Made by a program: the position numbers and the translations under genes
The notes under the pieces: model-generated
What the model was told of the DNA's origin: nothing
The model's input: the letters and a program-made list of their open reading frames with translations, nothing else
The model's database searches: none
Shown here: positions 4,667 through 38,524 of the stretch, piece by piece
Numbering within the stretch: position 1 is the stretch's first letter
Layout: the number at the start of each line of letters is the position of its first letter
Assembly: GCF_004310335.1 (NCBI RefSeq)
Contig: NZ_SIRS01000003.1
Coordinates: forward strand, 496,001 to 560,000
DNA from: Hyunsoonleella pacifica
Lineage (GTDB): Bacteria; Bacteroidota; Bacteroidia; Flavobacteriales; Flavobacteriaceae
DNA: 64,000 nucleotides
Direction: 5' to 3'

Positions 4667-5302
4667 ATGGAAAGCCAGCCAAAAAAAATCCTAATCTGCG
4701 AAGACCATCAAATTGTTATTGATGGGCTACTTTCTATATTTAAAAATCAACCTGATTATCATGTAATAGGTTATATTAATGATGGTAATACAGTAATTTC
4801 AACTATTGAAAAATATGTACCTGATGCTATTTTATTAGACCTTAACCTTCCTAATAAAAATGGGGTTGATATTTTGAAAGATATAAAACTAACACACCCA
4901 AAAATTAAGGTAATTATACTTACTATGTATAATACCGAAAGTATTATCAAAAAAGTAAAACAGCTAAATGCAAACGGGTTTTTACTTAAAAATTGCTCTT
5001 CTGAAGATTTATTTAATGCATTAGACGCTGTTTTTGAAAATAATACGTTTTACAAAGGTAAAGGTGTAAAAAATGAGGTAACAGAGACAGATGGGTTTCT
5101 TCAAAAAATTAATATTACCAGAAGGGAGAAAGAAATAATAGCCGAATTGATGGAAGGGCTTAATGTTCCTGAAATTGCTGAAAAGCTTTTTATCAGTTCC
5201 CATACCGTTGAAACTCACAAGAAGAATATTTTCAAGAAACTAAATATTCATAATTCTATAGATCTTGTAAAACTTGTAAATGAGAAAAAGTTATTATCAT
5301 AA
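4667..5302 (+). CDS. NarL/FixJ-type response regulator (REC + LuxR HTH)
   Basis: A 211-residue regulator. The receiver spans 1-125, with acidic pair ED at 12-13, phospho-acceptor Asp58 in AILLDLNLPNKNG, and a Lys in GFLLKN. The LuxR-type helix-turn-helix is at about 145-205 (ITRREKEIIAELMEGLNVPEIAEKL, HTVETHKKNIFKKL). Its end overlaps the start of the sensor kinase gene by 23 bp, so the pair is translationally coupled. The gene is divergent from the LytTR operon. Four promoters just downstream carry a 16-bp 7-2-7 dyad of the kind NarL-type proteins bind, so this regulator is the obvious candidate to control them; that link is inferred. Confidence 0.95.
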   Translation: MESQPKKILICEDHQIVIDGLLSIFKNQPDYHVIGYINDGNTVISTIEKYVPDAILLDLNLPNKNGVDILKDIKLTHPKIKVIILTMYNTESIIKKVKQLNANGFLLKNCSSEDLFNALDAVFENNTFYKGKGVKNEVTETDGFLQKINITRREKEIIAELMEGLNVPEIAEKLFISSHTVETHKKNIFKKLNIHNSIDLVKLVNEKKLLS

Positions 5303-7097
5303 CTGTGTTACTCTTTTTTTTATTTTAGGCTTAAGCTTATGCTTGAATTTAAAAGCGCAGGTAGATACTTTGTTTATTGACTCTAACTTTTCTTCAATTA
5401 ACCTTAAACCTTTCTCAAAAATTAGCAAAAATAACCTTGAGAGAAATGATGAGAGAGATTATTATTACTTCAGCTTTAACAACATCTTTAATACTATTGA
5501 TTTTACTTTAAAAAATGAGCTAAGCTCCCCTAAAACTATCCTGTTACAACTTTCTTATGTGTATATACAAGAAATTGTGCTCTGCAAATATGAACACAAT
5601 ATGCTTGTTCCTAAAGCAACCACAGGGATTGATTATAAACTAGCTACAAAACCCATTAAACATAGGCTATTTACATTACCTATTAAGTTAAACCCAAAGG
5701 AAACCGCATCGTATCAACTCAAGTTAAAAAAAGAAAAGGGCAAGCCTTTAGTTACGTCTGTATATTTAAAAAGTGAACAAACATTTGCAAAAGACAACAC
5801 TATTCAACAGATTATTGTTGGTGCTTATTTTGGGGTTAGCCTCCTTTCTGTTATTTTTAGTTTATTCATTTTTTCTTTTTTAAGAAAGAGTACTTACTTA
5901 ATCTATGCCGCCTATATTATTTTCTTAGGCTTATTTATTAGTGCGTACATTGGTGTGTTTTCTCAAATTTTTCTCAGCGAAAATACTACTGTAAACAAAT
6001 ACACCAACTATGTGGTTTTTAGTGAAATTTCATTAATTCTTTTTGCGCTATTCTCTCAAAAAATACTTGAAGCTAAAACTTATACGCCTAAGCTTAAAAA
6101 AAGTATTGAAGTCCTTTTAGGCATTGTTATCATTATAAGATTAGCCATACATTTTGTATTTACACATGTTTTTGAGAATGCTGTTGCCTTGTTTATGAAG
6201 ATATGGTATGCATTTTTTATCTTTTTAATTTGCATTATAATAGTGCAAATAGCCATTTACTACAGAAAAAACAATAAGCGTACCTCTCTTTTTGCTTTAG
6301 CTTATATTTTTATGATTTTGGGAACAATGGCCAGTATTTTATACCATAGTTATGGCATAGTAAATACTTATTTTTACGATTTACCGCTTTTATTTTATAC
6401 TTCGTTTTTAGAAATTTTATTCTTAACTTTTACCGTAGTATTTATGGTTAAGGATATTTATGACGAACGTAATACACTCTCTGAAAAAATAGTGTTACAA
6501 GAGAAAGAAAGCCTAACAGCATTTATAAAAGGCGAAGATCAAGAACGCAAACGTATTGGTAAAGAACTTCATGACAATATAGGTAGTCAATTAAGTTATT
6601 TAAAGCGGTTTGTTTCAGATACATTTAAAGATGAAAAAGTTACCGAAACCATTGATACTATATGTAACGACGTTAGAGATTTATCTCATGAAATTTCTCC
6701 TTCAGATTTAACAATGGTGGGGTTTAAAGATAGTGTAGAAGATTTAGCAAAAACACTATCTAGCCAAACGTCACTGAAGATAAATTTTAATAGTTATCAA
6801 TTCCCTAAAACATTAGATGACAGTATTGTAACACCTTTATATCGAGTAGTTCAAGAAACATTTAATAACATCATAAAGCACGCTAATGCAACACATGTAG
6901 ACGTACAACTTATGGGGCTTGAAGATGGATTTACCATTTCAATTGAAGATGACGGTAATGGGTTTGATGTTTTAAACACTAAAAATGGGCTTGGCATTAA
7001 AAATATGCAATCTAGGGTTCATCAGATAGGAGGCACATTCGCTCTAGATAGTATTCCAAATAAAGGCACATCTATTCTTATTTCAATACCAAAATAA
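5280..7097 (+). CDS. 7TMR-DISM sensor histidine kinase (HisKA_3 type)
   Basis: A 605-residue membrane kinase. It has a signal peptide (about 1-26), an extracytoplasmic sensor of about 150 residues like 7TMR-DISM ectodomains, about seven membrane segments between 175 and 395, and a short coiled coil. The dimerisation/phosphotransfer motif is ERKRIGKELHDNIGSQLSYL, with His in ELHDN. The HATPase has DDGNGFD and NGLGIKNMQSRV. HisKA_3 kinases pair with LuxR-HTH regulators, matching the overlapping upstream gene. The ATG lies inside the last codons of the regulator (VNEKKLLS). Carbohydrate-like ligands are common for 7TMR-DISM ectodomains, but the ligand here is unknown. Confidence 0.93.
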   Translation: MRKSYYHNCVTLFFILGLSLCLNLKAQVDTLFIDSNFSSINLKPFSKISKNNLERNDERDYYYFSFNNIFNTIDFTLKNELSSPKTILLQLSYVYIQEIVLCKYEHNMLVPKATTGIDYKLATKPIKHRLFTLPIKLNPKETASYQLKLKKEKGKPLVTSVYLKSEQTFAKDNTIQQIIVGAYFGVSLLSVIFSLFIFSFLRKSTYLIYAAYIIFLGLFISAYIGVFSQIFLSENTTVNKYTNYVVFSEISLILFALFSQKILEAKTYTPKLKKSIEVLLGIVIIIRLAIHFVFTHVFENAVALFMKIWYAFFIFLICIIIVQIAIYYRKNNKRTSLFALAYIFMILGTMASILYHSYGIVNTYFYDLPLLFYTSFLEILFLTFTVVFMVKDIYDERNTLSEKIVLQEKESLTAFIKGEDQERKRIGKELHDNIGSQLSYLKRFVSDTFKDEKVTETIDTICNDVRDLSHEISPSDLTMVGFKDSVEDLAKTLSSQTSLKINFNSYQFPKTLDDSIVTPLYRVVQETFNNIIKHANATHVDVQLMGLEDGFTISIEDDGNGFDVLNTKNGLGIKNMQSRVHQIGGTFALDSIPNKGTSILISIPK

Positions 7098-7106
7098 TTT
7101 AAAATC

Positions 7107-7154
7107 TACCAGAATTCTGGTATTGTATTCTACCCCTTAATTAATCTACTTTTA
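7107..7154 (+). promoter_or_regulatory. Dyad operator plus promoter of the candidate small RNA
   Basis: TACCAGAATTCTGGTA (7107-7122) is a perfect 16-bp palindrome that reads as two heptamers, TACCAGA and TCTGGTA, around AT. It directly abuts TTG (7123-7125). After 21 bp comes TACTTTTA (7147-7154). TTG/TAnnTTTG is the primary-sigma promoter pattern of Bacteroidota. The element starts 10 bp after the kinase stop codon. It is the most symmetric of four copies in the region. The predicted start of transcription is near 7160. Confidence 0.7.
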
Positions 7155-7159
7155 AAAAT

Positions 7160-7303
7160 ATCTTTTTAAATGCTTATATCTCAAAAGAATAATGCTATTA
7201 ATCGATGTTCTCGTAACCAACCACCGAGATGTATGTTTTAAATTGATTAGGCACATATCTTGTGTTTAGAGGTTTCAGCTTTAGGTTGAAACCTCTTTTG
7301 TTT
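7160..7303 (+). ncRNA. Candidate regulatory small RNA (about 140 nt)
   Basis: The stretch between the promoter at 7107-7154 and a strong terminator (7268-7303) contains no convincing reading frame, so the predicted transcript is non-coding. Bases 7234-7249 (TGTTTTAAATTGATTA) are perfectly complementary to the leader of the 7398 gene (7376-7391, 16 nt). They also match the leader of the 11554 gene (15 nt) and of the 8906 gene (13 nt), each ending 7-8 nt before the ATG. Its 3' half is similar to the 3' untranslated region after 11326. Alternatives are a decayed transcription unit that lost its protein gene by recombination, or a very small unrecognised ORF. No transcript data were available. 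Confidence 0.5.
7268..7303 (+). terminator. Rho-independent terminator of the candidate small RNA
   Basis: The stem AGAGGTTTCA (7268-7277) pairs perfectly with TGAAACCTCT (7287-7296) around a 9-nt loop, followed by TTTGTTT. A near-identical stem occurs at 11408-11435. Confidence 0.85.
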
Positions 7304-7323
7304 AAAAGCATAGCATGAAAATC

Positions 7324-7397
7324 TACCTGAACTCTGGTATTGTGCTCTAACAGCCTTTCAAGGTAATTTTACCCATAATCAATTTAAAACAATCATT
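7324..7397 (+). promoter_or_regulatory. Dyad operator, promoter and short leader of the 7398 gene
   Basis: Dyad TACCTGAACTCTGGTA (7324-7339; 6 of 8 positions symmetric) abuts TTG (7340-7342). A 21-bp spacer follows, then TAATTTTA (7364-7371). The predicted start is near 7377, giving a leader of only about 20 nt. That leader consists mostly of TAATCAATTTAAAACA (7376-7391), the complement of the candidate small RNA at 7234-7249. Confidence 0.7.
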
Positions 7398-8771
7398 ATG
7401 AAAACAAAACACACTTTAACCCTACTCGCGTGTATTATTTTGTATTCCTGTTATTTTGTTGGTTTTTCTCAGCAAAATTCAAATTATAGGTACACTAAAA
7501 ACCAAGAGGCAGCAGCAAACTTAATTAGTGCATTCAATACCATGCACAAAACACAGAATATAGTTAACTGGAAAGACACAAAACCTTGTAAAGTAAAAGA
7601 CTTAATGGGTAAAGCCCCCACCTCAATTATAGCCATAGATACCAGTAATATTGCTTTTGCCATAAATGGCATATACAGCACCATACAACCTCCTATTACT
7701 TCGGAAACTTTTGATAAAGGCATGTTTAACACTTTAGAAGATAAAGCGCTAAACGCCATTAACAATAGTAAAAACTTCGCCGATTTCGTACATGGTTTTA
7801 CGGGCAAAGATATAGGAGGCATTAAAGGGGAACGTACATCAAGTAGCGGTATGGTTTACAAGGATATCGATGAAATAAGATCCTATTATAAATCCTTAAA
7901 AAAATTCTTAAATGGTTTAGAGTTTACACCCAAACATGACAATAATTTGAATGGTAATTGCAGAACTGAAGCTACTTCTGACGTAAAAATTATAAAATTT
8001 AACTACCCAAAAATCACATGGGAAATTAGCACCTACGTAACGGTAAATTGTATTTGTAACAATGGTTTAGACCCTACAGAAATAAAAAGCGGTAGTTATG
8101 AATATACCGCAACACTAAACGGTATTTTTACACACGCAAAAATGACGTTTGACCAACCTAAAGACTCTAAAATTACCATTCATTCACTGGAATGTTGTGC
8201 TATAAAAGAAGAGTCTATTTCATCTGAACCATTAACAGATAATATTGATGACTTAATGCCAGAACAATATATAGGTGGAGGCGTAGGTATTGGTGCCCAA
8301 CAAGATTTTGAAGAAATATCATACTGCGTATCTGCTGAATATTTAAAAAAATTAACCAACGGTAGTAATGAAAGTGCTTGGTACGTAGGTGCTGAAGCTG
8401 GTTATTCTGGTTGGTCTTTTAACGATTCTAAATCTAATAGAATTAAAATTGGACCCAAACTACAATATCATACTGCAGTTACCCCAAGCAAACAAACCCA
8501 ACTCGTAGTAGGTCTAATGGGGAACTATAATTTTGGAACAAACGACAATGGTTTTTCCAAAGACGATGTTACAGGAATAGTAGGCTGCGCTTATGGTGGA
8601 GTAAACATCAGAGTATGTGAAAATTGGTCTTTGTTTGGTCAGTTTCCAGTTTTCATTTACGAAAGCACCACGTTTAAATCAGAAGCTGGAGGCGAGTTTA
8701 AAACCGACGGAACAAGTTTACTACTCAACAAGGATAATCCTCTTAAATTAGGTGTGAGATATAAGTTTTAG
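7398..8771 (+). CDS. Exported beta-barrel protein of unknown function, putative TCS target
   Basis: A 457-residue protein I do not recognise as a named family. It has an N-terminal signal peptide (about 1-24, ending GFSQQ) and a soluble, cysteine-containing region to about 285. From GGGVGIGAQQDF to the end there are alternating strands and a terminal aromatic (GVRYKF), typical of a small outer-membrane barrel. Its C-terminus (TTFKSEAGGEFKTDGTSLLL) matches that of the 11554 product (NTFKPESGGEFKDNSTWGLV), so the two are paralogues. It has its own dyad promoter and a terminator at 8792-8825. Regulation by the upstream two-component pair is inferred from the shared dyad. Confidence 0.8.
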   Translation: MKTKHTLTLLACIILYSCYFVGFSQQNSNYRYTKNQEAAANLISAFNTMHKTQNIVNWKDTKPCKVKDLMGKAPTSIIAIDTSNIAFAINGIYSTIQPPITSETFDKGMFNTLEDKALNAINNSKNFADFVHGFTGKDIGGIKGERTSSSGMVYKDIDEIRSYYKSLKKFLNGLEFTPKHDNNLNGNCRTEATSDVKIIKFNYPKITWEISTYVTVNCICNNGLDPTEIKSGSYEYTATLNGIFTHAKMTFDQPKDSKITIHSLECCAIKEESISSEPLTDNIDDLMPEQYIGGGVGIGAQQDFEEISYCVSAEYLKKLTNGSNESAWYVGAEAGYSGWSFNDSKSNRIKIGPKLQYHTAVTPSKQTQLVVGLMGNYNFGTNDNGFSKDDVTGIVGCAYGGVNIRVCENWSLFGQFPVFIYESTTFKSEAGGEFKTDGTSLLLNKDNPLKLGVRYKF

Positions 8772-8833: not shown

Positions 8834-8905
8834 TACCTGAGCTCTGGTATTGTGCTCCGATAGTACTTAAGTTAGTTTTATTCCATCAATTTAAAACTAC
8901 ATGTT
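8834..8905 (+). promoter_or_regulatory. Dyad operator, promoter and short leader of the 8906 gene
   Basis: TACCTGAGCTCTGGTA (8834-8849; 7 of 8 positions symmetric) abuts TTG (8850-8852). A 20-bp spacer follows, then TAGTTTTA (8873-8880). The predicted start is near 8886. The leader begins with ATCAATTTAAAAC (8885-8897), 13 nt complementary to the candidate small RNA, and ends 8 nt before the ATG. Confidence 0.7.
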
Positions 8906-11326
8906 ATGATTACTAAATTATTTTTAGGAACCTTTCTATTTCTTTGTTTTCAAATAAACGCACAAAATAATAACTGGTACCAATATGCAAGACCACTATC
9001 AATAAACCAAATGGTAAAAGGGCCTAACGGAAATTATCATTATGCTACTAATATTGGTTACCAAAAGCTCGACAATAACTTTAACACTATTGAAGTAAAG
9101 AATTTAACTACTCAAAAAACAGCTATTGGGAACTGTTTTTCTATTGCCGTAAATCCGAATAATGGAAATAGTTTTGCTTTAGGTGAAAATGATCGTGTTA
9201 TTATTTTTACCAATGGCGTAGAAACTAATCAAGTTAGTGTAAATGCTGTAAACCCCTTTACAGGACCCAATCTATATTACAATAACAATAATGTGTTATA
9301 TATTTTTAATGAAAATGATTCTAACAATGAGTCTTATTCAATTTTTGAAAACGGTACACTTACTGAAGTGGCTACTCCCGGTATAAGACCCAAGGATATG
9401 ATAGAAAACAACGCAGGCACAAAACTTTTTATTGCAGATACAAATAATGGACTATGGGAATATACAAAAGCGACTGATACATGGGTAAATTATACAAAGG
9501 ATAACTCTAACCTATTAAGTAATTTTATAAATGATTTGTTTGTTGATACTAATGACAATCTTCTTGTAGGCTCATACGAAGGCATCAATAAAATAGAACC
9601 TAATGGTACTATTACATCATGTACACCACCTAGCTTTTCTCCTGTTTTTGAGCTTGATGTCCATCCTAACTCAGGAGAAATTGTAGCAAGAACTTCACAA
9701 CCAAATAGTGCCAATACTTTTGGATTCTATACCGTAAACTTTAACACCTGCACATGGCAAAATTTTACAAATGATGGCAACAGCTGTATACAAGAAAATA
9801 TGTTTAAAACGGTTCAGTTTTCATCCACACCTTCCGATAGTAAAATTGTAGCAAGCGGTGCTCAGTTATCTGCTGAGAATACATATGTTTTTGATCCTTC
9901 AAACCCAACGAACTCTTGTGACTATATTGATTTTAACTATATGGGAGCACCTCTGCGAGTGGATATAAACTATGTAACAGATATGAATGTACGTAAAACA
10001 TCAGATGGTAAATATGATATTGGTGCTTGTAATGGAAGCGATACACTGTTCTATTTTTCTATAACACCAGAAACATTTGATGGAACTTTCTCTCCTGCTA
10101 CATCAGTAACATTACCACAACCAGCATTCTCAATATTAAGTGATAATGGTTTTTTTATTGTTGATTCAAATGAAAGCTTCTCATTTATTGATGAGAATGA
10201 TAATAACACATCTTTTAACCATAATTTATCAAATCATTTAGTTATTAGTTCTAAAAAAACAGCTTTGGAGGATTCAGATGATGGCATCATTAATATCCTT
10301 ACCAAGGCCTTTGATGCTGCTTTTAATTATCGTGTGTATAAAACGCAGTGCGATACTAATACTGGAAACTGCTCTGTCTTAGAAGAAATTTTTACTAACG
10401 ATAGAGATCTTACTAAAAATATAATTTTTGGCGCAAATGAAGACCCTGCAACAAACAAAATAGATGTAGTTGCAGTAAAAACAGATGCCTCTGGAGCATT
10501 AAAACGAACTAATGAAAGTTGGGAATCTAACCAACCAGCCGTAAGTAACTGGGATAGAATACATGATGTCTTTCCCCGTTTTGATCCTGTAGTTTTTAGT
10601 TTTGTCTTAGATGATTTAATAAATATTGCTTCATTTTTTGCACCAGCCCAAGAAGATGTTGTAAACCTAGTTGAAGATGCTAATGATGGCAATACCAAAA
10701 CTACAAGTATAACAACAGATACTAATAACGATAATACCAACGAAGATGTAAAGGTAGTAACAGAATTGATCCTTACAGATGATGAAGCAACAAAATTTAT
10801 TGGAGCAATTCTAATAGGTTTAGAACAATTTAATACTTCTGCACCACATACTTTTTACAGTAAATATGTTTATCTTAAAAATATTGATCCAGTAACAAAA
10901 AACTTATTACCGGAAGAAAGAGATATAACAGATGTGTCTTGGGATACGAAAGACCAACCTAAAGATTTAATCATCAAAAAAGCTAAAGCTATACAGTATG
11001 ATGCCAATCATGCTTTAATGGTTTTCCTTACCAACTATGGAATCTTATTAAAAACTGATTTAAACATATCAAATTTAACTCTAAATGTAAATGACGTTTC
11101 ATTTAACGAAAAACATATTACTCTTTATCCTAATCCATCAAAAGGGTTTGTTTCATTTTCGGATAAAACAGTACAAAAAATAAGTGTTTATGACACAAAC
11201 GGGAGACAAGTTTTAGAATCTAAAAGCAACTCAATCTCAGTAAAAAACATATCAAAAGGTATGTATATAGTTAAGGGTACAACATCAGAAAATGTAACTA
11301 TTACAAGAAAATTGATAAAAAATTAA
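8906..11326 (+). CDS. T9SS-exported protein with propeller-like repeats, putative TCS target
   Basis: An 806-residue secreted protein. It has a signal peptide (1-20, MITKLFLGTFLFLCFQINAQ). Repeats resemble a Reg_prop-like beta-propeller (for example GLWEYTKATDTWVNYTKDNS, FINDLFVDTNDNLLVGSYEG) over about 30-450. A mixed region follows, and the last 75 residues form a type A T9SS sorting domain (ITLYPNPSKGFVSFSD, ISVYDTNGRQVLES, ISKGMYIVKGT, ending RKLIKN). It would be carried across the outer membrane by T9SS and anchored or released. The dyad promoter links it to the 7398 and 11554 genes. The binding partner is unknown. Its 3' untranslated region resembles the candidate small RNA. Confidence 0.85.
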   Translation: MITKLFLGTFLFLCFQINAQNNNWYQYARPLSINQMVKGPNGNYHYATNIGYQKLDNNFNTIEVKNLTTQKTAIGNCFSIAVNPNNGNSFALGENDRVIIFTNGVETNQVSVNAVNPFTGPNLYYNNNNVLYIFNENDSNNESYSIFENGTLTEVATPGIRPKDMIENNAGTKLFIADTNNGLWEYTKATDTWVNYTKDNSNLLSNFINDLFVDTNDNLLVGSYEGINKIEPNGTITSCTPPSFSPVFELDVHPNSGEIVARTSQPNSANTFGFYTVNFNTCTWQNFTNDGNSCIQENMFKTVQFSSTPSDSKIVASGAQLSAENTYVFDPSNPTNSCDYIDFNYMGAPLRVDINYVTDMNVRKTSDGKYDIGACNGSDTLFYFSITPETFDGTFSPATSVTLPQPAFSILSDNGFFIVDSNESFSFIDENDNNTSFNHNLSNHLVISSKKTALEDSDDGIINILTKAFDAAFNYRVYKTQCDTNTGNCSVLEEIFTNDRDLTKNIIFGANEDPATNKIDVVAVKTDASGALKRTNESWESNQPAVSNWDRIHDVFPRFDPVVFSFVLDDLINIASFFAPAQEDVVNLVEDANDGNTKTTSITTDTNNDNTNEDVKVVTELILTDDEATKFIGAILIGLEQFNTSAPHTFYSKYVYLKNIDPVTKNLLPEERDITDVSWDTKDQPKDLIIKKAKAIQYDANHALMVFLTNYGILLKTDLNISNLTLNVNDVSFNEKHITLYPNPSKGFVSFSDKTVQKISVYDTNGRQVLESKSNSISVKNISKGMYIVKGTTSENVTITRKLIKN

Positions 11327-11330
11327 AAGA

Positions 11331-11446
11331 AGCTATTAATCAATGTTTTTCAAGCTACCATTCAAGATGTATGTTTTAAATTGATGAAATATCTAATCTT
11401 GATAAAGAGAGGTTTCAATTTTTATTGAGACCTCTTTGTTTTTTTA
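11331..11446 (+). other. 3' untranslated region with small-RNA-like element and terminator
   Basis: This region aligns with 7190-7303: GCTATTAATC(A/G)ATGTT, then AAGATGTATG, then GTTTTAAATTGAT (11373-11385). It ends in terminator stem AGAGGTTTCAA (11408-11418) / TTGAGACCTCT (11425-11435) with a long T tail. GTTTTAAATTGAT is complementary to the leaders of all three dyad-controlled protein genes. It may be the 3' end of the 8906 mRNA only, or a 3'-derived regulatory RNA; the sequence does not decide. Confidence 0.5.
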
Positions 11447-11478: not shown

Positions 11479-11553
11479 TACCTGAACTCTGGTATTGCTT
11501 CTAAATACAGTTTCAAGCTAATTTTAGCCATAATCAATTTAAAACCATTCATT
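11479..11553 (+). promoter_or_regulatory. Dyad operator, promoter and short leader of the 11554 gene
   Basis: TACCTGAACTCTGGTA (11479-11494) is identical to the copy at 7324. It abuts TTG (11495-11497); a 21-bp spacer and TAATTTTA (11519-11526) follow. The predicted start is near 11532. The leader contains ATCAATTTAAAAC (11533-11545), ending 8 nt before the ATG. Confidence 0.7.
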
Positions 11554-12315
11554 ATGAAAACCAAACACCCTAATTTCGTTTGTGCTGTATTGCTTTTACT
11601 CTTTACCAGCACCATGTTTTCGCAAGAAAATATTTTTAAAGCAATTCTAGATAATACACAGGATACATTTTCTGTTGCATCTTATGAAGAAACAAATTTA
11701 GAAACCCAATCCAATGAACTCTTTGGCATTACAGACGAGTTTAGAGACTCCTATGCCATAGAAGACCAAAAACCAGAAGAGGTAGTTGCTATTTTTGCTA
11801 GAACTTTATTAGCTCTTGGTGCTGGCTTTGGGTTTGGAAGTGATGACACACTATGGTGTCTTCATGCAGCTTATTATCTAAGGGCAGCAATGTTTGCGAA
11901 TTCAGCACTCTATGTTTCCATAGGTGCATTATATAGTGGGCTAAGTGGAAATACTTTTAATAGGTCTTTATTAGAAATACAATTTAGAGCACTTATGTTT
12001 ACACCCATTACGCGTTATAAACAAGTTAACTTTATGTATGGGCTTATGCTTGCCTATGCTTTTGGAGCAGATAAATTTGATTCAGGAGGCCAAACAGACT
12101 TCACAAGATTAACCCTAGCTTTAGTTGTAGGATTCCAAATTATTTTAACCTCCCAACTTTCATTAATGTTACAAACCAACATGTTAGCACATATAAGAAA
12201 TACATTTAAACCAGAAAGTGGTGGAGAGTTTAAAGATAATAGTACTTGGGGACTTGTTAATAAGAATAATATTTTCGGAATTTCTCTAGTATGGGCATTA
12301 GCCAACAGAAGGTAA
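11554..12315 (+). CDS. Exported small beta-barrel protein, paralogue of the 7398 product
   Basis: A 253-residue protein starting MKTKHPNFVCAVLLLLF, a signal peptide ending near FSQ. A longer frame opens at 11425, but it would start inside the preceding terminator and read through the promoter, so the ATG at 11554 is chosen. After an acidic linker (about 25-85), the rest looks like six to eight amphipathic strands with glycine-rich turns. The C-terminal NTFKPESGGEFKDN matches the 7398 product, whose soluble N-terminal domain it lacks. It is the last member of the apparent regulon and is closed by the terminator at 12336-12376. Function unknown. Confidence 0.78.
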   Translation: MKTKHPNFVCAVLLLLFTSTMFSQENIFKAILDNTQDTFSVASYEETNLETQSNELFGITDEFRDSYAIEDQKPEEVVAIFARTLLALGAGFGFGSDDTLWCLHAAYYLRAAMFANSALYVSIGALYSGLSGNTFNRSLLEIQFRALMFTPITRYKQVNFMYGLMLAYAFGADKFDSGGQTDFTRLTLALVVGFQIILTSQLSLMLQTNMLAHIRNTFKPESGGEFKDNSTWGLVNKNNIFGISLVWALANRR

Positions 12316-12809: not shown

Positions 12810-14012
12810 ATGAAAGCACTTTTTTATACCAGAGAATTTCCACCTTATGTTTATGGTGGTGCCGGAGTACATGTTGAATATTTAGCCGATGAGTTATCAA
12901 AACTCATGGATTTAGATGTAAGGTGCTTTGGTGATCAAAATTCCAAAGAAGGTAATTTAAGTGTAAAAGGTTTTCCTTTTGAAGATGGGGTTTTTAAAAG
13001 TTCTGATGACAAATTAAAATCTGTTTTTAAAACATTAGCAACAGGATTACACATGAATGCTGATGCCATAGATGCCGATGTTGTACATTGTCATACTTGG
13101 TATGCACATTTTGCAGGTATTGTTTCAAAATTGTGTTACGGTACACCATTAGTGATAACAACGCATTCTCTAGAACCTTTACGCCCTTGGAAACGTGAAC
13201 AATTAGGTAGAGGTTACGATGCTTCTTCTTGGGTTGAAAAAACAGCTATTGAAATGGCTGATGCTTTAATTGCCGTTTCCGAAGAAACTAAAGAAGATGT
13301 CATAAAACATTTTAACGTTGATGAAAATAAAGTTAAAGTGATTTATAATGGGATTAACCTACAGCAGTATGTGCAAACATCAAAAACCTCAACACTAGAT
13401 GAGTATGGAATAGATAAAACAAAACCTTATGTTCTTTTTGTTGGTAGAATTACGAGGCAAAAAGGTATTATTCACTTAGTTAATGCCATTAAATATATTG
13501 ATCCTAATACGCAAATAGTACTATGTGCAGGTGCTCCTGATACAAAAGAGATTGGTAAAGAAATGGAGGATGCTGTTAATGCCGTTAAAAAAAATAGAAG
13601 CAATGTAATTTGGATTGATAAAATGGTTACCAAACCAGAAATAATTCAGTTGTATTCCCATGCTGATGTGTTTTGTTGTCCATCAATTTATGAACCTTTT
13701 GGCATTATAAATATAGAGGCTATGGCATGTAATACAGCCGTAGTTGCTAGTGCCGTTGGTGGTATTAAAGAAGTTGTTGTAGATGGCGAAACTGGTATTT
13801 TAGTGCCTTTAGAACAGCAAACAGAAGCTCCTTTTGAGCCTATTAATCCTGATAAATTTGCCAGAGACTTAGCAAATGGTATTAATAAAGTTATTGACGA
13901 TAAAGACTTGAGAGAAGCTATGGCAAAAAAAGGAAGAAAGCGTGTAGAAGATTATTTCGATTGGGTAGCTATAGCAAAACAGGTAGAAGATTTATATAAA
14001 TCTTTAATTTAA
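12810..14012 (+). CDS. glgM: GT4 glycogen synthase / maltose-1-phosphate synthase
   Basis: A 400-residue cytoplasmic glycosyltransferase with a GT-B fold. The N-terminus MKALFYTREFPPYVYGGAGVHVEYL has the GGAGVH loop. VLFVGRITRQKG opens the second domain, and EPFGIINIEAMA is the retaining GT4 E-x7-E motif. It belongs to the Corynebacterium/Mycobacterium-type synthase family (GT4, about 400 residues), not the 480-residue GT5 GlgA. In mycobacteria this family makes maltose-1-phosphate from ADP-glucose and glucose-1-phosphate. The neighbours glgC (23 bp downstream) and glgE support that role here; alternatively it elongates glucan directly. Confidence 0.88.
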   Translation: MKALFYTREFPPYVYGGAGVHVEYLADELSKLMDLDVRCFGDQNSKEGNLSVKGFPFEDGVFKSSDDKLKSVFKTLATGLHMNADAIDADVVHCHTWYAHFAGIVSKLCYGTPLVITTHSLEPLRPWKREQLGRGYDASSWVEKTAIEMADALIAVSEETKEDVIKHFNVDENKVKVIYNGINLQQYVQTSKTSTLDEYGIDKTKPYVLFVGRITRQKGIIHLVNAIKYIDPNTQIVLCAGAPDTKEIGKEMEDAVNAVKKNRSNVIWIDKMVTKPEIIQLYSHADVFCCPSIYEPFGIINIEAMACNTAVVASAVGGIKEVVVDGETGILVPLEQQTEAPFEPINPDKFARDLANGINKVIDDKDLREAMAKKGRKRVEDYFDWVAIAKQVEDLYKSLI

Positions 14013-14035
14013 CAACAAAACTAAAATAACTAGAT

Positions 14036-15301
14036 ATGATAAATAACAAAGTATTATCCATCATTTTAGGGGGCGGACAAGGGTCAAGACTATACCCTTT
14101 AACTAAAGATAGATCTAAACCCGCAGTACCTATCGCTGGAAAGTATCGCTTAGTAGATATTCCTATTTCAAACTGTATTAATGCGGATATTAAACGCATG
14201 TATGTATTAACGCAGTTTAACTCTGCCTCATTAAACCGCCATATCAAAAATACATACCATTTTAGTTTTTTTAGTAGTGCTTTTGTTGATGTTTTAGCAG
14301 CAGAACAAACCCCACAAAATAAAACGTGGTTTCAAGGTACAGCCGATGCGGTTAGACAAAGTATGCATCACTTTTTAAGACATGACTTTGAGTATTTTTT
14401 AATACTATCAGGCGACCAACTATACCAGATGGATTATGAAGAGATGATTAATGCACATGAAGAAAGCGGTGCTGAAATATCTATCGCTACTATCCCTGTA
14501 ACAGCAAAAGATGCTACAGAATTTGGTATTTTAAAGTCAGATGATCAAAACATAATTACTTCATTCATAGAAAAACCAGCATCTGATTTACTACCAGACT
14601 GGACTTCTGAAGTTAGTAAAGACATGAAAAGTCAAGGACGTAATTATTTAGCTTCAATGGGCATCTATATTTTTAACAGAGACTTATTAACTAAGTTAAT
14701 GGAGAATCCTGATACCAACGATTTTGGGAAAGAAATTATTCCTAATGCAATTGAAAAGCACAAAACATTAAGTTATCAATATGAAGGATATTGGACAGAT
14801 ATTGGAAATATAGATTCTTTCTTTGAAGCTAATATTGGACTTACAAAAGACTTACCTGAATTTGATTTATACGATAGAAAGAAGAGAATTTACACCAGAG
14901 CAAGAATGCTACCTACAACAAAGTTGGCAGGAACTATGGTAGAAAAATCTGTAATAGCCGAAGGATGTATTATTAGTGCTGCAAAAATTGAGAACTCTGT
15001 AATTGGTATAAGGTCTAGAATAGGAGACGAATCTACCGTAATAAACACCTATATGATGGGTTGTGATACTTATGAAAACCTAATTGAAATAGATCGAGAT
15101 AAAATTGAAATTTTAATGGGTATTGGCGAGCGCTGTTTTATAAAAAATACCATAATTGATAAAAATTGCCGTATCGGAGATGATGTTAGAATTAATGGAG
15201 GTTCTCACTTAGAGGAGATTGAAACCGACACTTATATGGTAAAACAAGGCATTGTAGTCATTAAAAAAGGTGCTGTTATACCTAAAGGAACCGTTATATA
15301 A
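14036..15301 (+). CDS. glgC: Glucose-1-phosphate adenylyltransferase
   Basis: A 421-residue ADP-glucose pyrophosphorylase that makes ADP-glucose from ATP and glucose-1-phosphate, normally the committed step of bacterial glucan synthesis. Nucleotide-binding signature ILGGGQGSRLYPLTKDRSKP is at 10-29. GKYRLVDIPISNCINA follows, then substrate motif FIEKP, YWTDIGN, and a C-terminal left-handed beta-helix (about 300-421). Length is normal for the family. It lies 23 bp after the synthase and 34 bp before glgE on the same strand, so it should be in one operon. Regulation by glycolytic metabolites is known for the family but cannot be judged here. Confidence 0.96.
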   Translation: MINNKVLSIILGGGQGSRLYPLTKDRSKPAVPIAGKYRLVDIPISNCINADIKRMYVLTQFNSASLNRHIKNTYHFSFFSSAFVDVLAAEQTPQNKTWFQGTADAVRQSMHHFLRHDFEYFLILSGDQLYQMDYEEMINAHEESGAEISIATIPVTAKDATEFGILKSDDQNIITSFIEKPASDLLPDWTSEVSKDMKSQGRNYLASMGIYIFNRDLLTKLMENPDTNDFGKEIIPNAIEKHKTLSYQYEGYWTDIGNIDSFFEANIGLTKDLPEFDLYDRKKRIYTRARMLPTTKLAGTMVEKSVIAEGCIISAAKIENSVIGIRSRIGDESTVINTYMMGCDTYENLIEIDRDKIEILMGIGERCFIKNTIIDKNCRIGDDVRINGGSHLEEIETDTYMVKQGIVVIKKGAVIPKGTVI

Positions 15302-15335
15302 ATCTTAACTTTTATTTTTTCTTATTAAAAAACAC

Positions 15336-17276
15336 ATGAAAAATCAAAGACGTGTAGTTGTTGATTATGTTTCTCCAAGTGTAAATGGCGGAGAATTTTA
15401 TATAAAACGAATTGTTAATGAAGTTGTAAATGTAAGAGCACATATTCTTGCAGATGGTCATGATGTTTTGGGAGCATCAGTATGCTATAAACATGAAAAT
15501 GGAAAAAAATGGAATGAAGCCCGTATGTCTCTCGATTTTAACAATGAGTGGCAAGCATCATTTTTTGTTGAAAAGCAAGGATATTACACTTATAAAGTTG
15601 AAGCTTGGGTAGATTATACTTTAAACTGGAGGCATGGTATTATTAGAAAAATTGATGATGGTCAATATGTGATTTCAGAACTTTTAGAAGGCGCAGATTA
15701 TATTGAAGCCGTTATAAAAAAAGTGTCATCAAAAGTAGATAAAGCTTATCTCGAACATTTACAAAACCTATTTAAAGATGAAAGTAAATATGATGAAGCC
15801 GTAAAAGAAGCAACCTCAGAAAGGCTTTATCAAATATTCTATAATAACCCCATCAAACTTTTGGAAAACACCTCTACAGATTTCCAAATTTATGTTGATC
15901 GAAAAAAAGCAAGGTTCAGTACATGGTATGAGTTCTTTCCAAGATCTGCTTCAGAAAAAGAAGGAGTACATGGAACCTTTAAGGATTGTGAACGCCTTTT
16001 ACCTCGTATTAAAAATATGGGATTCGATGTAGTATACCTGCCTCCTATACATCCCATTGGAGAAGTAAACAGAAAAGGCAAAAACAATACTACTGAAGCT
16101 AAAGAAGGAGATGTAGGCTCTACTTGGGGCGTTGGTTCCAAGTATGGTGGACATAAAGCCATACATCCGCAATTAGGAAACTTAGAAGACTTTAAAGCTT
16201 TAGTAAAAAAGGCAAAAGAGCAAGGTTTAGAAATTGCCATGGACTATGCTTTACAAGCAGCTCCAGATCACCCATGGGTAAAAGCACACCCAAAATGGTT
16301 TAAATGGCGTCCTGACGGAACGGTGCAATATGCCGAAAACCCGCCGAAAAAATACCAAGATATTTTACCTATTTATTGGGAAAGTGAAGAATATGAAGCG
16401 CTATGGCAAGAGTGTTTAGATATTCTACTACATTGGATAGATTGCGGTATAGAAATTTTTAGAGTAGATAACCCACACACCAAACCCTTTTATTTCTGGA
16501 ATTGGATAATTACCAAAGTAAAAGAAAAACACCCTAATGTTATTTTCTTAGCAGAAGCCTTTACTGCGCCTAAAGTGATGCAACAATTAGCTAAACAGGG
16601 TTACACGCAATCTTATACATACTTTACATGGCGAAATAATAAACATGAACTCATTGATTATGTTGAAGAGTTAACAAAAACAGAACTTAAAGAATATATG
16701 CAACCTAATTTCTGGCCTAACACACCAGATATTAATCCATTTCATCTACAAGGTACCGGAGACTCTAAACACATGCAACGCTATGCCCTAGCGGCCACAC
16801 TAAGTTCTTGCATTGGTATTTATGGACCTGTATTCGAATATATGTTATCAGACTCCTTACTTGGAAAAGAAGAGTATTTAAACTCTGAAAAATTTCAAAT
16901 AACACATTACGATTGGACAATTCAAAATAAATTAACCACTGTTATTGCAAAAATAAATTTCGTAAGGCATCATAATGAAGCACTTCAACAAACCAATAAT
17001 ATCAAATTCTGTTATGTTGAAAATGATAATTTAATAGCCTTTTACAAGTGGAATGAAGCTAAAACAAATCATATCCTAGTTGTTATAAGTTTAGATCATC
17101 ATAATTCTCAACAAGGCACTATACAAATGCCTCTATATGAACTTGGCGTTCATGAAGGACATCTTATGGAAATGCATGATTTAATTACAGATAATCGTTA
17201 CAATTGGCATAACGAATGGAATTTTGTGGAACTGCATCCGGCATTACCTTTTCACATATTTCAAATTAATAAATAG
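15336..17276 (+). CDS. glgE: Alpha-1,4-glucan:maltose-1-phosphate maltosyltransferase
   Basis: A 646-residue GH13_3 enzyme that transfers maltose from maltose-1-phosphate to the end of an alpha-1,4-glucan. It has an N-terminal beta-sandwich (about 8-115), a helical insert (120-185), a TIM barrel from 190 and a C-terminal beta domain. Diagnostic stretches are STWYEFFPRS, VVYLPPIHPIGEVNRKGKNN and YALQAAPDHPWV. Catalytic Asp378 is in GIEIFRVDNPHTKP and Glu407 in FLAEAFT. The spacing of these residues fits characterised GlgE proteins. It sits between glgC and glgB. No treS or maltokinase gene is visible, so its donor would have to come from the upstream GT4 enzyme. Confidence 0.95.
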   Translation: MKNQRRVVVDYVSPSVNGGEFYIKRIVNEVVNVRAHILADGHDVLGASVCYKHENGKKWNEARMSLDFNNEWQASFFVEKQGYYTYKVEAWVDYTLNWRHGIIRKIDDGQYVISELLEGADYIEAVIKKVSSKVDKAYLEHLQNLFKDESKYDEAVKEATSERLYQIFYNNPIKLLENTSTDFQIYVDRKKARFSTWYEFFPRSASEKEGVHGTFKDCERLLPRIKNMGFDVVYLPPIHPIGEVNRKGKNNTTEAKEGDVGSTWGVGSKYGGHKAIHPQLGNLEDFKALVKKAKEQGLEIAMDYALQAAPDHPWVKAHPKWFKWRPDGTVQYAENPPKKYQDILPIYWESEEYEALWQECLDILLHWIDCGIEIFRVDNPHTKPFYFWNWIITKVKEKHPNVIFLAEAFTAPKVMQQLAKQGYTQSYTYFTWRNNKHELIDYVEELTKTELKEYMQPNFWPNTPDINPFHLQGTGDSKHMQRYALAATLSSCIGIYGPVFEYMLSDSLLGKEEYLNSEKFQITHYDWTIQNKLTTVIAKINFVRHHNEALQQTNNIKFCYVENDNLIAFYKWNEAKTNHILVVISLDHHNSQQGTIQMPLYELGVHEGHLMEMHDLITDNRYNWHNEWNFVELHPALPFHIFQINK

Positions 17277-35692: not shown

Positions 35693-37042
35693 ATGAGAAT
35701 GTCTCTCAAATTATATTCACTATTATGTTGTATTACACTTCTCTTTTTTAAAACAGGGTTTACGCAAACTTTTGTTCCAGACGATAATTTCGAACAAGCA
35801 TTGATTGATTTAGGTTTAGATACAGCACCATTGGATGACTTTGTACCTACCGCTAATATTACTAGTGTTACAAGTTTAACCATTGATAATAGAGGTATCC
35901 AAGATTTAACGGGAATAGAGGGTTTTACTGCTTTAAATCAACTGTTTGTTGAAAACAATTTACTTACAACTATTGATATTAGTACTAATACAAATCTTCA
36001 AATTTTATGGTGTTTTAATAATGCATTACCTAATCTAAACGTAAGTAATAATCAAAATTTAATATCGCTGCGATGTGACGGGAATAGTTTAACAACACTA
36101 AACCTATCTAACAATCCAGAATTAAATGTACTAACATGTGAAAACAATACAATTCCTAATTTAGATCTATCTTCAAATACAGAATTAAACCGCTTGGTTT
36201 GTGGTAATAACCTATTAACAAGTTTAGATATATCAAATAATCCAGAAATATCAGAACTAAATTGTAGTAATAACCAAATAGTTGATCTAGACATTTCTAA
36301 TAATACCTCGATAAGTATTCTAAATTGTTCTAATAATAGTATAGGCGAACTTGACGCTTCACTACAATCAGAACTTATAGAGCTAGATTGCAATAACAAT
36401 CAATTGTGTTATTTAAATATAAGCAATGGTAATAACCTTAATGTTACTGCAATGAATTTTGATGGAAATACAAGTTTAACTTGTGTAATAGTTGATAATA
36501 TAATGAATAATCATTCCACATGGATACCAACAAATTATCAACATTACGTAGAATCAATAAATGCGTGTAATGAAAAAGTGCCTGTAGATGTTTTAGATAA
36601 TTTTATAGGAGCTTCTTTTATATTACCGCCTTTAAATAATGGCGATTATTATACCGGAATTTTAGCAAGTGGTAACCTGCTTAACGAAGGAGATACCATT
36701 ACTAAAACACAAACTATTTACATATATAATGAAGATAACTGTTTTAATAACCAAAGTAGTTTTAACATTATCATATCAAACAAACCCTATCTAATTCCAA
36801 AGTATTTTACCCCTAATAATGATGGTATTAATGATGTTTGGAAAATTACAGATCCTAATAACTTAATTAATAGTATTACTATTTATAATAGACATGGAAA
36901 ACTTCTAAAATTTTTACCATCAAAAACTCAAAGTTGGAATGGTATATTTAATGGAAAGCTTTTACCTAACGACAGTTATTGGTACGAAATTGTTCTTAAC
37001 AGTAGAGAAATCGTAAGAGGGTATTTTGCCTTAAAACGTTAA
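35693..37042 (+). CDS. Leucine-rich-repeat protein with T9SS gliding-type C-terminal domain
   Basis: A 449-residue secreted protein. It has a signal peptide (about 1-25, ending GFTQ) and about ten 21-residue repeats (about 60-275) of the pattern LDISNNxxLxxLxCxxN, the short LRR type common in Bacteroidota surface proteins. A small linker domain follows, and then a type B (gliding-motility-associated) T9SS sorting domain: YFTPNNDGINDVWKI, SITIYNRHGKLL, WNGIFNGKLLPNDSYWYEI, GYFALKR. It should be exported by T9SS and kept at the surface or released. It starts one base after the OmpA gene stop. Partners are unknown; adhesion is plausible. Confidence 0.9.
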   Translation: MRMSLKLYSLLCCITLLFFKTGFTQTFVPDDNFEQALIDLGLDTAPLDDFVPTANITSVTSLTIDNRGIQDLTGIEGFTALNQLFVENNLLTTIDISTNTNLQILWCFNNALPNLNVSNNQNLISLRCDGNSLTTLNLSNNPELNVLTCENNTIPNLDLSSNTELNRLVCGNNLLTSLDISNNPEISELNCSNNQIVDLDISNNTSISILNCSNNSIGELDASLQSELIELDCNNNQLCYLNISNGNNLNVTAMNFDGNTSLTCVIVDNIMNNHSTWIPTNYQHYVESINACNEKVPVDVLDNFIGASFILPPLNNGDYYTGILASGNLLNEGDTITKTQTIYIYNEDNCFNNQSSFNIIISNKPYLIPKYFTPNNDGINDVWKITDPNNLINSITIYNRHGKLLKFLPSKTQSWNGIFNGKLLPNDSYWYEIVLNSREIVRGYFALKR

Positions 37043-37482
37043 TTATCCTTAACCATAGCAATATGCGGAATACCATCTTCCATATACTCCTCTCCTTTTT
37101 GCTTAAATCCTAAATTATTATAAAAATGTCTTAAATGCGATTGCGCAGAAATTTTTAGTTTAGTTTCCTTAAAGTGTGTTTTTATAGCCTCAATAGATGC
37201 TTCCATAATTATATATCCATATTTATGAGCTCTTTCACTATGTGTAACCACCACTCTACCAATACTAGCTTTATCAAAATAATCACCAGGTTTAAATACT
37301 CTAGTATAAGCAGCTAAAATATTGGTTTTATAACCTAAAACATGCAGTGCTTTTTGATCTTTTCCATCAATATCTTGGTAAACACAATCTTGCTCCACAA
37401 CAAAAACTGCACTACGTAATTGCAAAACATCATACAATTCTTGGGTAGTTAACTCATCAAATGTTTTTACAATAACTTTCAT
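37039..37482 (-). CDS. ElaA-like GNAT acetyltransferase
   Basis: A 147-residue cytoplasmic protein of the GNAT fold. ELYDVLQLRSAVFVVEQDCVYQDIDGKDQ is the ElaA signature. IGRVVVTHSERAHKYGYIIM covers the acetyl-CoA loop region, and LSAQSHLRHFYNNLGFKQKG the C-terminal part. ElaA proteins are assigned as N-acetyltransferases of unknown substrate. The gene converges with the LRR gene, and the two stop regions overlap by 4 bp. Confidence 0.9.
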   Translation of the reverse strand: MKVIVKTFDELTTQELYDVLQLRSAVFVVEQDCVYQDIDGKDQKALHVLGYKTNILAAYTRVFKPGDYFDKASIGRVVVTHSERAHKYGYIIMEASIEAIKTHFKETKLKISAQSHLRHFYNNLGFKQKGEEYMEDGIPHIAMVKDN

Positions 37483-37497
37483 ATAAAGAAATTTCTA

Positions 37498-37585
37498 TTT
37501 GGGCGCTACCACAAGGGTCGGGCTTTCCACTATATCTTTTTATCATACTTCAAAAAAGGATGCCGCTGCAATCCCTAGCGCAACT
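37498..37585. repeat. Candidate intergenic interspersed repeat (about 88 bp)
   Basis: The gap between the acetyltransferase and CDF genes carries a GC-richer block starting GGGCGCTACCACAAGGGTCG and ending GCAATCCCTAGCGCAAC. Its ends form inverted repeats (GCGCTA at 37503-37508 and TAGCGC at 37576-37581). Blocks with this beginning and end recur between genes in other Flavobacteriaceae as far as I recall; only one copy is present in this window, so repetition cannot be shown here. Confidence 0.5.
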
Positions 37586-37603
37586 ATCAGCTAAAATTAT
37601 AGT

Positions 37604-38524
37604 TTAATCCTGTACAATCACTTCTTTTGCATCATCCTTACCATATTCTGGTTGAATATTTACATGGTTAATATCATATTTATCTAAAACCAATGTTTCA
37701 ATATCTTTTAAAATAGCATCAAATTTTGATAACGTAATATCCTCATAAAAATCAATATGAGCTTCCAAATGAATTTCATCTTCATTAAGCTGCCACACAT
37801 GTACGTGATGCGTATTTTTTACTGAATCAAATGTATTTATTTCATCTACAATCTTTTGAATAGGAATACTATCAGGAGTAAACAACATTAAAACCTTAGT
37901 AGAGTTTTTTAATAAATCCCACCCCATCCAAATTAAATATAAAGCAATAGCAAAAGTTAATACACTATCTACCCAAAACAAATCAAAATATTTCATTAAC
38001 AAACCACCTATTAACACAGCTACACTAGCCATCATATCTGTTAATAAATGTAAGTAAGCACTTTTCATATTCATGTTAGCCTTAGCATCTTTTTTTAATA
38101 ATAATACGCTAAAACCATTACCTAAAATAGCAATAAAAGATAGCCAAATAACTAAGTTAGATGCTATTTTTTGTGGATTTTGAAAACGCTCAACAGCTTC
38201 AATTATTAATAAAATAGCAACAATTATTAAAGTTGCAGCATTAATAAAAGCAGCTAAAATTTCAGCACGTTTATAACCAAATGTTTTTTTATTAGATGCT
38301 TTTCGTTTTGCAAGCCGGTTAGCTATATAACTAACTATTAGAGATAAAACATCACTAAAATTATGAAGTGCATCACTTAATAAAGATAAACTTCCAGATA
38401 TAATACCACCAATAACCTGAGCTACAGTAATAACTATATTAAGTAAAATAGAAATAAAAAGATTACGCCCTTTTAAGTCGTTATGATGATGGTGTATGTG
38501 ATTATGATCATGAGAATGACCCAT
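37604..38524 (-). CDS. Cation diffusion facilitator (zinc-type exporter)
   Basis: A 306-residue inner-membrane antiporter. The His-rich N-terminus (GHSHDHNHIHHHHND) probably binds zinc. Six membrane segments span about 22-205. The metal site shows as DALHNFSDVLSL in TM2 and HLLTDMMASVAVL in TM5 (HxxxD). A cytoplasmic domain (about 215-300) has THHVHVWQLNEDEIHLEAHI. This is the ZitB/CzcD type that exports Zn2+, possibly Cd2+ or Co2+, in exchange for protons. It lies 20 bp after rpiB on the same strand. Confidence 0.94.
   Translation of the reverse strand: MGHSHDHNHIHHHHNDLKGRNLFISILLNIVITVAQVIGGIISGSLSLLSDALHNFSDVLSLIVSYIANRLAKRKASNKKTFGYKRAEILAAFINAATLIIVAILLIIEAVERFQNPQKIASNLVIWLSFIAILGNGFSVLLLKKDAKANMNMKSAYLHLLTDMMASVAVLIGGLLMKYFDLFWVDSVLTFAIALYLIWMGWDLLKNSTKVLMLFTPDSIPIQKIVDEINTFDSVKNTHHVHVWQLNEDEIHLEAHIDFYEDITLSKFDAILKDIETLVLDKYDINHVNIQPEYGKDDAKEVIVQD

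Follow-up and report, generated by a model that had tools for sequence, protein, structure and literature searches.

OppZ and CarZ of Vibrio cholerae are autoregulatory small RNAs derived from 3′ untranslated regions (3′ UTRs; PMC7398697). The locus of Hyunsoonleella pacifica described here is like them in that the 3′ end of a transcript holds an RNA predicted to pair with the same transcript; for OppZ and CarZ this is described as inhibiting its translation (PMC7398697). Unlike these RNAs as described, the element in our locus is also present as a separate gene under the promoter of the regulon, matches the leader of several transcripts and belongs to a genome without a match to Hfq (PF17209 gave no match in H. 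pacifica, while the identical search was positive in 5 of 14 controls). With CpxQ of enterobacteria it shares being a 3′ UTR RNA of a two-component-driven gene, with conservation higher in the 3′ UTR than in the remainder of the gene (PMC9438474). The 5′ ends of CpxQ-like RNAs are reported to be often near the stop codon, as is the case for the element here, whereas CpxQ represses several other mRNAs, including inner-membrane protein mRNAs, and the predicted targets here are the regulon's own mRNAs (PMC9438474). Rfp18 of Flavobacterium psychrophilum, which we liken to our RNA by its description, is also flavobacterial and has one stem-loop predicted to pair with several secreted-protein mRNAs; it differs in that its deletion lowers two target mRNAs and in that the account consulted describes no promoter common to Rfp18 and its targets (PMC9723704). 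For the small RNAs of Bacteroides thetaiotaomicron such as GibS, the likeness is that of the same phylum alone, as far as the accounts consulted go (PMC7366714, PMC11697453). Among the matches listed in the openly licensed PMC literature there is no description of our element.

The window, that is, the whole stretch of 64,000 nucleotides that was analysed, contains a gene for a NarL/LuxR-type response regulator (4667–5302, as all features of the system on the forward strand; Pfam Response_reg 3.4e-24, GerE 4.9e-18), which we presume to be the activator acting at the promoters described below. It is followed by the gene for a 7TMR-DISM sensor histidine kinase (5280–7097, identified with Pfam), the ortholog of which marks the system in 10 genomes. 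Downstream of the kinase gene, four promoters containing a dyad start at 7107, 7324, 8834 and 11479. The first precedes about 145 nucleotides closing with a terminator, the others the three target genes. Gene 7398 (7398–8771) encodes a predicted protein with a carboxy-terminal OmpA/OmpW-like beta-barrel, as judged from a structure model (mean pLDDT 73.9, pTM 0.46) and Foldseek (OmpA domain, E 2.9e-4, TMt 0.73); a Pfam scan of this product returned no match. The product of gene 8906 (8906–11326) carries a type 9 secretion sorting tail (Por_Secre_tail 4e-11, TIGR04183 2.8e-11), and gene 11554 (11554–12315) encodes a possible outer-membrane beta-barrel protein (Pfam OMP_b-brl, E 3.2e-4, under the curated cut-off). 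Further downstream (12810–17276) lies a glycogen-synthesis-like cluster, with a glycosyltransferase, a nucleotidyltransferase containing a GLGC helix domain and an open reading frame of 646 amino acids; the start of its first reading frame is within 7 kb in 8 of the 9 loci read, MAG BB23 being the exception. An Rfam Flavo-1 RNA (RF01705, 50.5 bits) is located at 37512–37596 on the minus strand, between the minus-strand reading frames 37039–37482 and 37604–38524.

The dyad of the first promoter (7107–7125), located 9 nt past the kinase stop codon, consists of a perfect palindrome of 16 bases (TACCAGAATTCTGGTA) followed by TTG, and thus has the high symmetry that the sequence-only reading had ascribed to it. 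The -33 element of flavobacterial sigma-A promoters is TTG. The predicted -7 box of the separate RNA, TACTTTTA (7147–7154), is located 21 nt past the TTG of the dyad. Matches to the dyad pattern at 7324–7342, 8834–8852 and 11479–11497 form the promoters of genes 7398, 8906 and 11554, respectively, and the same dyad pattern with a -7 box precedes the separate RNA and all three target genes. A TAnnTTTA-like -7 box is present 20 to 21 nt after the TTG in all 19 dyad promoters of nine genomes, near to the flavobacterial sigma-A consensus, given as TAnnTTTG (PMC9723704). The response regulator presumably binds the dyads, which overlap the -33 region of these near-identical sigma-A-type promoters. 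The complementary stretches of the target mRNAs had been placed at the predicted transcript starts, and indeed, since the -7 box is 20 to 21 nt after the TTG, they begin within a few nucleotides of the start. Exact matches to the dyad pattern number five in the H. pacifica genome, four at the locus and one elsewhere.

The distance between the kinase stop codon and the start of the dyad is 2 to 10 nt in eight loci, while in the locus of genome G003 the two overlap. Between the kinase gene and the element (7097–7303), the only terminator-like site is a weak one, the palindromic dyad itself, so this element may be the end of the kinase mRNA as well. In the G003 locus, the element is a separate gene upstream of a large gene (5304–7730), the end of which resembles, by eye, that of sorting-tail proteins and which has neither a dyad promoter nor a 3′ UTR element of its own.

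The predicted separate small RNA spans 7158–7303, as delimited by the anatomy of promoter and terminator, and is conserved in six genomes. Within it, the conserved element covers 7191–7300 (107.4 bits with model R1, of which this copy is one of the source sequences). The 3′ UTR of gene 8906 contains a second copy, unmentioned in the sequence-only reading (11329–11440, placed at 11325–11441 by the initial search; 101.6 bits with R1); in it, the block GCTATTAAT starts after 5 nt from the stop codon. An alignment of 11 copies from nine genomes (A1) shows the following organisation: the block GCTATTAAT, at 7194–7202 in the separate copy and invariant in all 11; a variable region; a hairpin closed by CAAGAU and AUCUUG, with the seed in its loop; and a terminator. 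The antisense seed, GAUGUAUGUUUUAAAUUGAUUA (7228–7249), is the complement of the target leaders, as supported by duplex and shuffle tests. The terminator stem claimed earlier for the separate RNA is present at 7268–7296, with 13 pairs (G-T allowed) and a loop of three bases; that of the second copy, also found with the terminator scan, is at 11406–11437. Five pairs of the terminator are changed on both sides across species, while in the seed hairpin changes are confined to one side, with no two-sided pair. In minimum-energy folds of the element alone, the seed hairpin is formed in 7 of 9 copies, the separate copy of H. pacifica and that of BB23 folding otherwise. A candidate pseudoknot joining the 5′ block to the seed is paired in 92% of the alignment cells and is not claimed, because no pair is changed on both sides. 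Across the eight loci examined, perfect complements of GCTATTAAT and TAACCAACC in the mRNAs of the locus were not found. Rfam gives no match at gathering score at the locus, with only weak sub-gathering matches.

The separate-gene form, under its own dyad, is found in H. pacifica, H. ulvae, H. flava, MAG BB23 and genomes G005 and G003. In these copies, a promoter-like site and an intrinsic terminator flank a conserved interval without a conserved reading frame. The 3′ UTR form is found in H. pacifica (gene 8906), H. ulvae (gene 13629), H. aquatilis, MAG Co_bin.381 and A. onchidii, in each case in an mRNA whose own leader matches the element; the two forms thus occur together in H. pacifica and H. 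ulvae. All five 3′ UTR copies measured start 4 to 5 nt past the stop codon, and the proteins encoded by their host genes have unaligned lengths ranging from 481 to 817 residues.

The longest perfect complements between the separate copy (7191–7303) and the leaders are of 16 nt for gene 7398 (7376–7391), 13 nt for gene 8906 (8885–8897) and 15 nt for gene 11554 (11531–11545), exactly as claimed; with its own 3′ UTR element, the 8906 leader forms 14 pairs, from 8884. The spacing to the ATG, given earlier as 7 to 8 nt, is 8 nt for genes 8906 and 11554 and is corrected to 6 nt for gene 7398. For 13 leaders of nine genomes, each with one element of its own genome, the duplex energies range from -20.5 to -27.4 kcal/mol; 12 of these leaders exceed all 300 dinucleotide shuffles of the element, and the H. 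aquatilis leader ties with the best shuffle. With both partners fully folded, all 14 combinations tested (one leader-element pair being from H. ulvae) still favour binding, by 7.2 to 18.2 kcal/mol, and each is stronger than with all of 30 shuffled leaders. The leader of gene 8906 prefers its own 3′ UTR copy (-23.5 vs -21.4 kcal/mol with the separate RNA), while those of genes 7398 and 11554 pair best with the separate RNA, which suggests a division of labour between the two copies in H. pacifica.

The leader core is a 14-mer, AATCAATTTAAAAC, with four copies in the H. pacifica genome: three at the locus and the fourth within an unrelated reading frame. A generic leader is ruled out, since in 14 genomes the 14-mer occurs 0 to 2 times per genome away from the locus. 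A looser leader-plus-ATG pattern matches 52 sites in these 14 genomes; 12 are in the locus itself and 40 lie away from it, and the reversed control has 21 matches. Judged from this excess, further targets beyond the locus are possible. One gene start away from the locus, ATCAATTTAAAATTTCATTATGA on the minus strand, is identical in H. pacifica and H. flava and is a possible extra target. Its duplexes with the separate RNA are weaker (-14.3 and -14.5 kcal/mol), none of the dyad matches listed lies there, and it is absent among the looser-pattern matches of H. ulvae.

All 10 non-redundant leaders have the same core sequence, whereas the mean pairwise identity of the promoter spacers is 37% (the core having been located by its motif). 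In this comparison, as in the shuffle test on the bases before the ATG, the self-pairing test and the permutation of cognate pairs, H. ulvae was excluded as a near-duplicate of H. pacifica. Outside the core, the 10 to 11 bases before the ATG pair with the best element better than shuffled bases in 10 of 10 non-redundant leaders (fractions of 0.001 to 0.035 of 1000 shuffles), although a combined value overstates the case, because the leaders share ancestry; for the 11554 leader of H. pacifica with the separate RNA, the fraction is 0.078. The clearest two-sided change is in A. onchidii, where GAUGUAUG of the element has become GAUAUUCG, matched by AUAUC in the leader. Among 13 leaders, its own is the best partner of the A. 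onchidii element. This compensation is only partial, because the A. onchidii leader pairs at -20.5 kcal/mol with its own element and more strongly with all ten others (-23.2 to -26.2 kcal/mol). In G003, leader and element are mutual best partners (-27.4 kcal/mol), and in H. flava and H. aquatilis one mismatch adjoins the core. A permutation of cognate against non-cognate pairs gives values of 0.0044 for the whole element and 0.046 for the seed segment, becoming 0.018 and 0.19 when A. onchidii is left out; all four values ignore relatedness. Some covariation is present, as looked for, but it is weak: with an invariant duplex core, the signal rests on the edges of the duplex and on the segment before the ATG. 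Taken together, the genome comparison strongly supports the earlier proposal of an RNA from the promoter class of the regulon, predicted to pair with the co-regulated leaders.

In four of the five species tested, the 5′ end of the separate RNA, a diverged version of the leader, pairs with the RNA's own seed. The fractions of 1000 shuffles that equal this self-pairing are 0.003 in H. pacifica, 0.001 in H. flava and 0 in both G005 and G003, while the BB23 RNA has no 5′ leader and 0.80 of its shuffles pair equally well with the seed. In G003, GUCUU is paired with AAGAU, in place of the AUCUC/GAGAU pairing of the others, a compensatory difference hinting that the closed form, with the 5′ end on the seed, may itself be maintained. 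Folding leaves most of the seed paired in the RNAs of H. pacifica, H. ulvae, G005 and G003. Binding of targets may be slowed by the closed form, but is energetically permitted.

Our preferred reading, to which we give a probability of about 0.6, is that this locus forms a two-component regulon equipped with its own RNA brake; promoter, element, complementarity, their co-occurrence and some compensatory change are read from the DNA, whereas transcription, regulator binding, repression and action in trans are what the reading predicts. The response regulator would bind the dyad and give rise to mRNAs with a common leader (AAUCAAUUUAAAAC..CAUU-AUG). The same promoter class would yield the structured element, about 110 nt long, which is encoded by a gene of its own or forms the 3′ UTR of one of the target mRNAs, with the seed, complementary to the leader, presented in the loop of the conserved hairpin. 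Pairing is predicted to span about -25 to -4 of each target mRNA and would keep off the 30S subunit. The starts of the mRNAs fold weakly (-3.3 to -10.0 kcal/mol per 72 nt), and translation initiation in this group is described as not based on Shine-Dalgarno sequences (PMC9723704); together with the extent of the pairing, this makes occupancy of the 30S footprint the simplest effect to propose. Acting in trans, the element would form an incoherent feed-forward loop on the regulon; as a 3′ UTR, it would autoregulate its parent mRNA. The sequence-only reading, in which the two-component system makes an RNA tuning its own surface-protein targets, agrees with the shared promoter class and the complementary leaders but is incomplete: the 5′ end of the separate RNA pairs with the seed in four of the five species tested, and the element is a 3′ UTR in five genomes, so action in cis or by a 3′ UTR-derived RNA must be included.

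How far the element acts on its own transcript is the point on which an alternative turns, according to which leader and 3′ element of one transcript form a panhandle for stability or translation, the separate RNA being a gene remnant with the same panhandle. The loci retrieved from A. onchidii, H. aquatilis and MAG Co_bin.381 fit this model, holding only a 3′ UTR copy, on an mRNA with a matching leader, and provide the best evidence for an action on the parent mRNA. The pairing of 5′ end and seed in the separate RNAs of H. pacifica, H. flava, G005 and G003, with the compensatory difference in G003, is likewise expected of it. Against a mainly cis-acting panhandle, genes 7398 and 11554 of H. 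pacifica, 12135 of H. flava, 12112 of G005 and 4405 of G003 retain the leader but have no 3′ element themselves, and the separate RNA of BB23 lacks the 5′ leader, yet the seed and a matching leader on another mRNA are kept. The loci retrieved from H. flava, G005, G003 and BB23 each contain a single element, located off the target mRNA, and since complementarity is kept there, pairing in trans is favoured, with BB23 as the best case for it. We consider the panhandle a rather unlikely main function. The sign of the regulation could also be positive, since in F. psychrophilum two target mRNAs decrease when Rfp18 is deleted (PMC9723704). The RNA would then activate or stabilise its targets, for instance by protecting mRNA 5′ ends, and the pairing does start at the predicted 5′ end of the mRNA. 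The weakly folded mRNA starts offer little structure to open, however, and the pairing extends to about -4, where the 30S subunit must bind, making activation unlikely.

Two further explanations deny the RNA its function. If the complementarity were a relic at the level of the DNA or of duplication, it would be an inverted copy of a protein-binding site without a role as RNA. The element is clearly a copied module in H. pacifica and H. ulvae, as such a relic would be, but over the nine aligned genomes the seed has kept its place, with a conserved hairpin on one side and, on the other, a terminator that shows compensatory pairs, while the promoter spacers have drifted; we regard a relic as very improbable. 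The interval could also encode a small protein. It had been called free of reading frames, which is not strictly so, because ATG frames of 25 and 23 codons start at 7192 and 7170; neither of them is conserved. In H. pacifica, H. ulvae, G005 and G003, ATG frames of 16 to 25 codons start at ATGCTATTAAT, but 5 of the 11 copies lack the ATG, and the frame is shifted by the variable region. A conserved small reading frame was looked for by scanning ATG frames in the 11 aligned copies and none was found, leaving a coding function with hardly any likelihood.

The preferred reading, of an RNA brake on the regulon, can be carried one step further, tentatively and with much less confidence than the brake itself. 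All transcripts of the regulon would bear a common 5′ tag, and an RNA from the same promoters would read this tag, making the regulon self-reading. As the 5′ end of the separate RNA resembles the tag and, in most of the species tested, folds back onto the seed, the reader may act as a governor with two states, which opens onto free leaders and thereby meters the mRNA of the regulon. In evolution, the reader would switch between gene and 3′ UTR, apparently keeping its target.

Both pairing partners were checked for conservation, and dyad, leader motif and element occur together in 10 of 10 genomes with a kinase at least 59% identical. Named Hyunsoonleella records among the relatives are H. ulvae, H. 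flava and H. aquatilis. The ten genomes contain two close pairs, H. pacifica with H. ulvae and MAG Co_bin.381 with G371 (94% over 900 ungapped bases), and at least two of them are metagenome assemblies; the statistical tests ignore phylogeny. G371, the tenth genome, has a kinase of 60% identity, the dyad, the leader 14-mer and an element known as a search match of 96.7 bits. The kinase is found at E 1e-100 or better in 6 of 12 genomes of the genus sample, and at 1e-130 in 4 of 397 family genomes, H. pacifica included. In these 397 genomes, searched with stricter filters at the loss of some weak matches, R1 exceeds 95 bits only in H. pacifica, G178 and G371, all with the kinase ortholog. Matches of 37 to 41 bits in G091 and G307 are probably matches to the terminator, with no seed within two mismatches; dyad-like sites occur there only at two mismatches, in two of three loci.

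In G183, whose kinase is 36% identical, one exact dyad overlaps the kinase gene end, with two others elsewhere, one of which was inspected. In this genome, the dyad is thus located at the end of the kinase gene (L143, 4667) and before an unlinked second gene with a similar carboxy-terminal end (L144, 1264). The leader 14-mer is absent from the G183 genome and no element was seen in the 13.5 kb read, where the longest complement to the one leader tested is 9 nt. The nearest seed-like string, with one mismatch, lies inside a reading frame. As G183 keeps the dyad without the leader, the leader does not appear, from this one genome, to be part of the dyad promoter as such.

Few small RNAs of this phylum, to our knowledge, have worked-out targets. 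The prediction of targets is unusually firm in the present case because the shared leader is strictly conserved. A conserved RNA of some marine flavobacteria, apparently co-induced with genes for surface proteins, would probably brake them through the shared start of their messages. As a candidate RNA circuit, the locus is compact and open to experiment, in a flavobacterium whose genome gave no Hfq match, and the occurrence of one element as gene, as 3′ UTR, or as both bears on how small RNA genes and 3′ UTR regulators interconvert.
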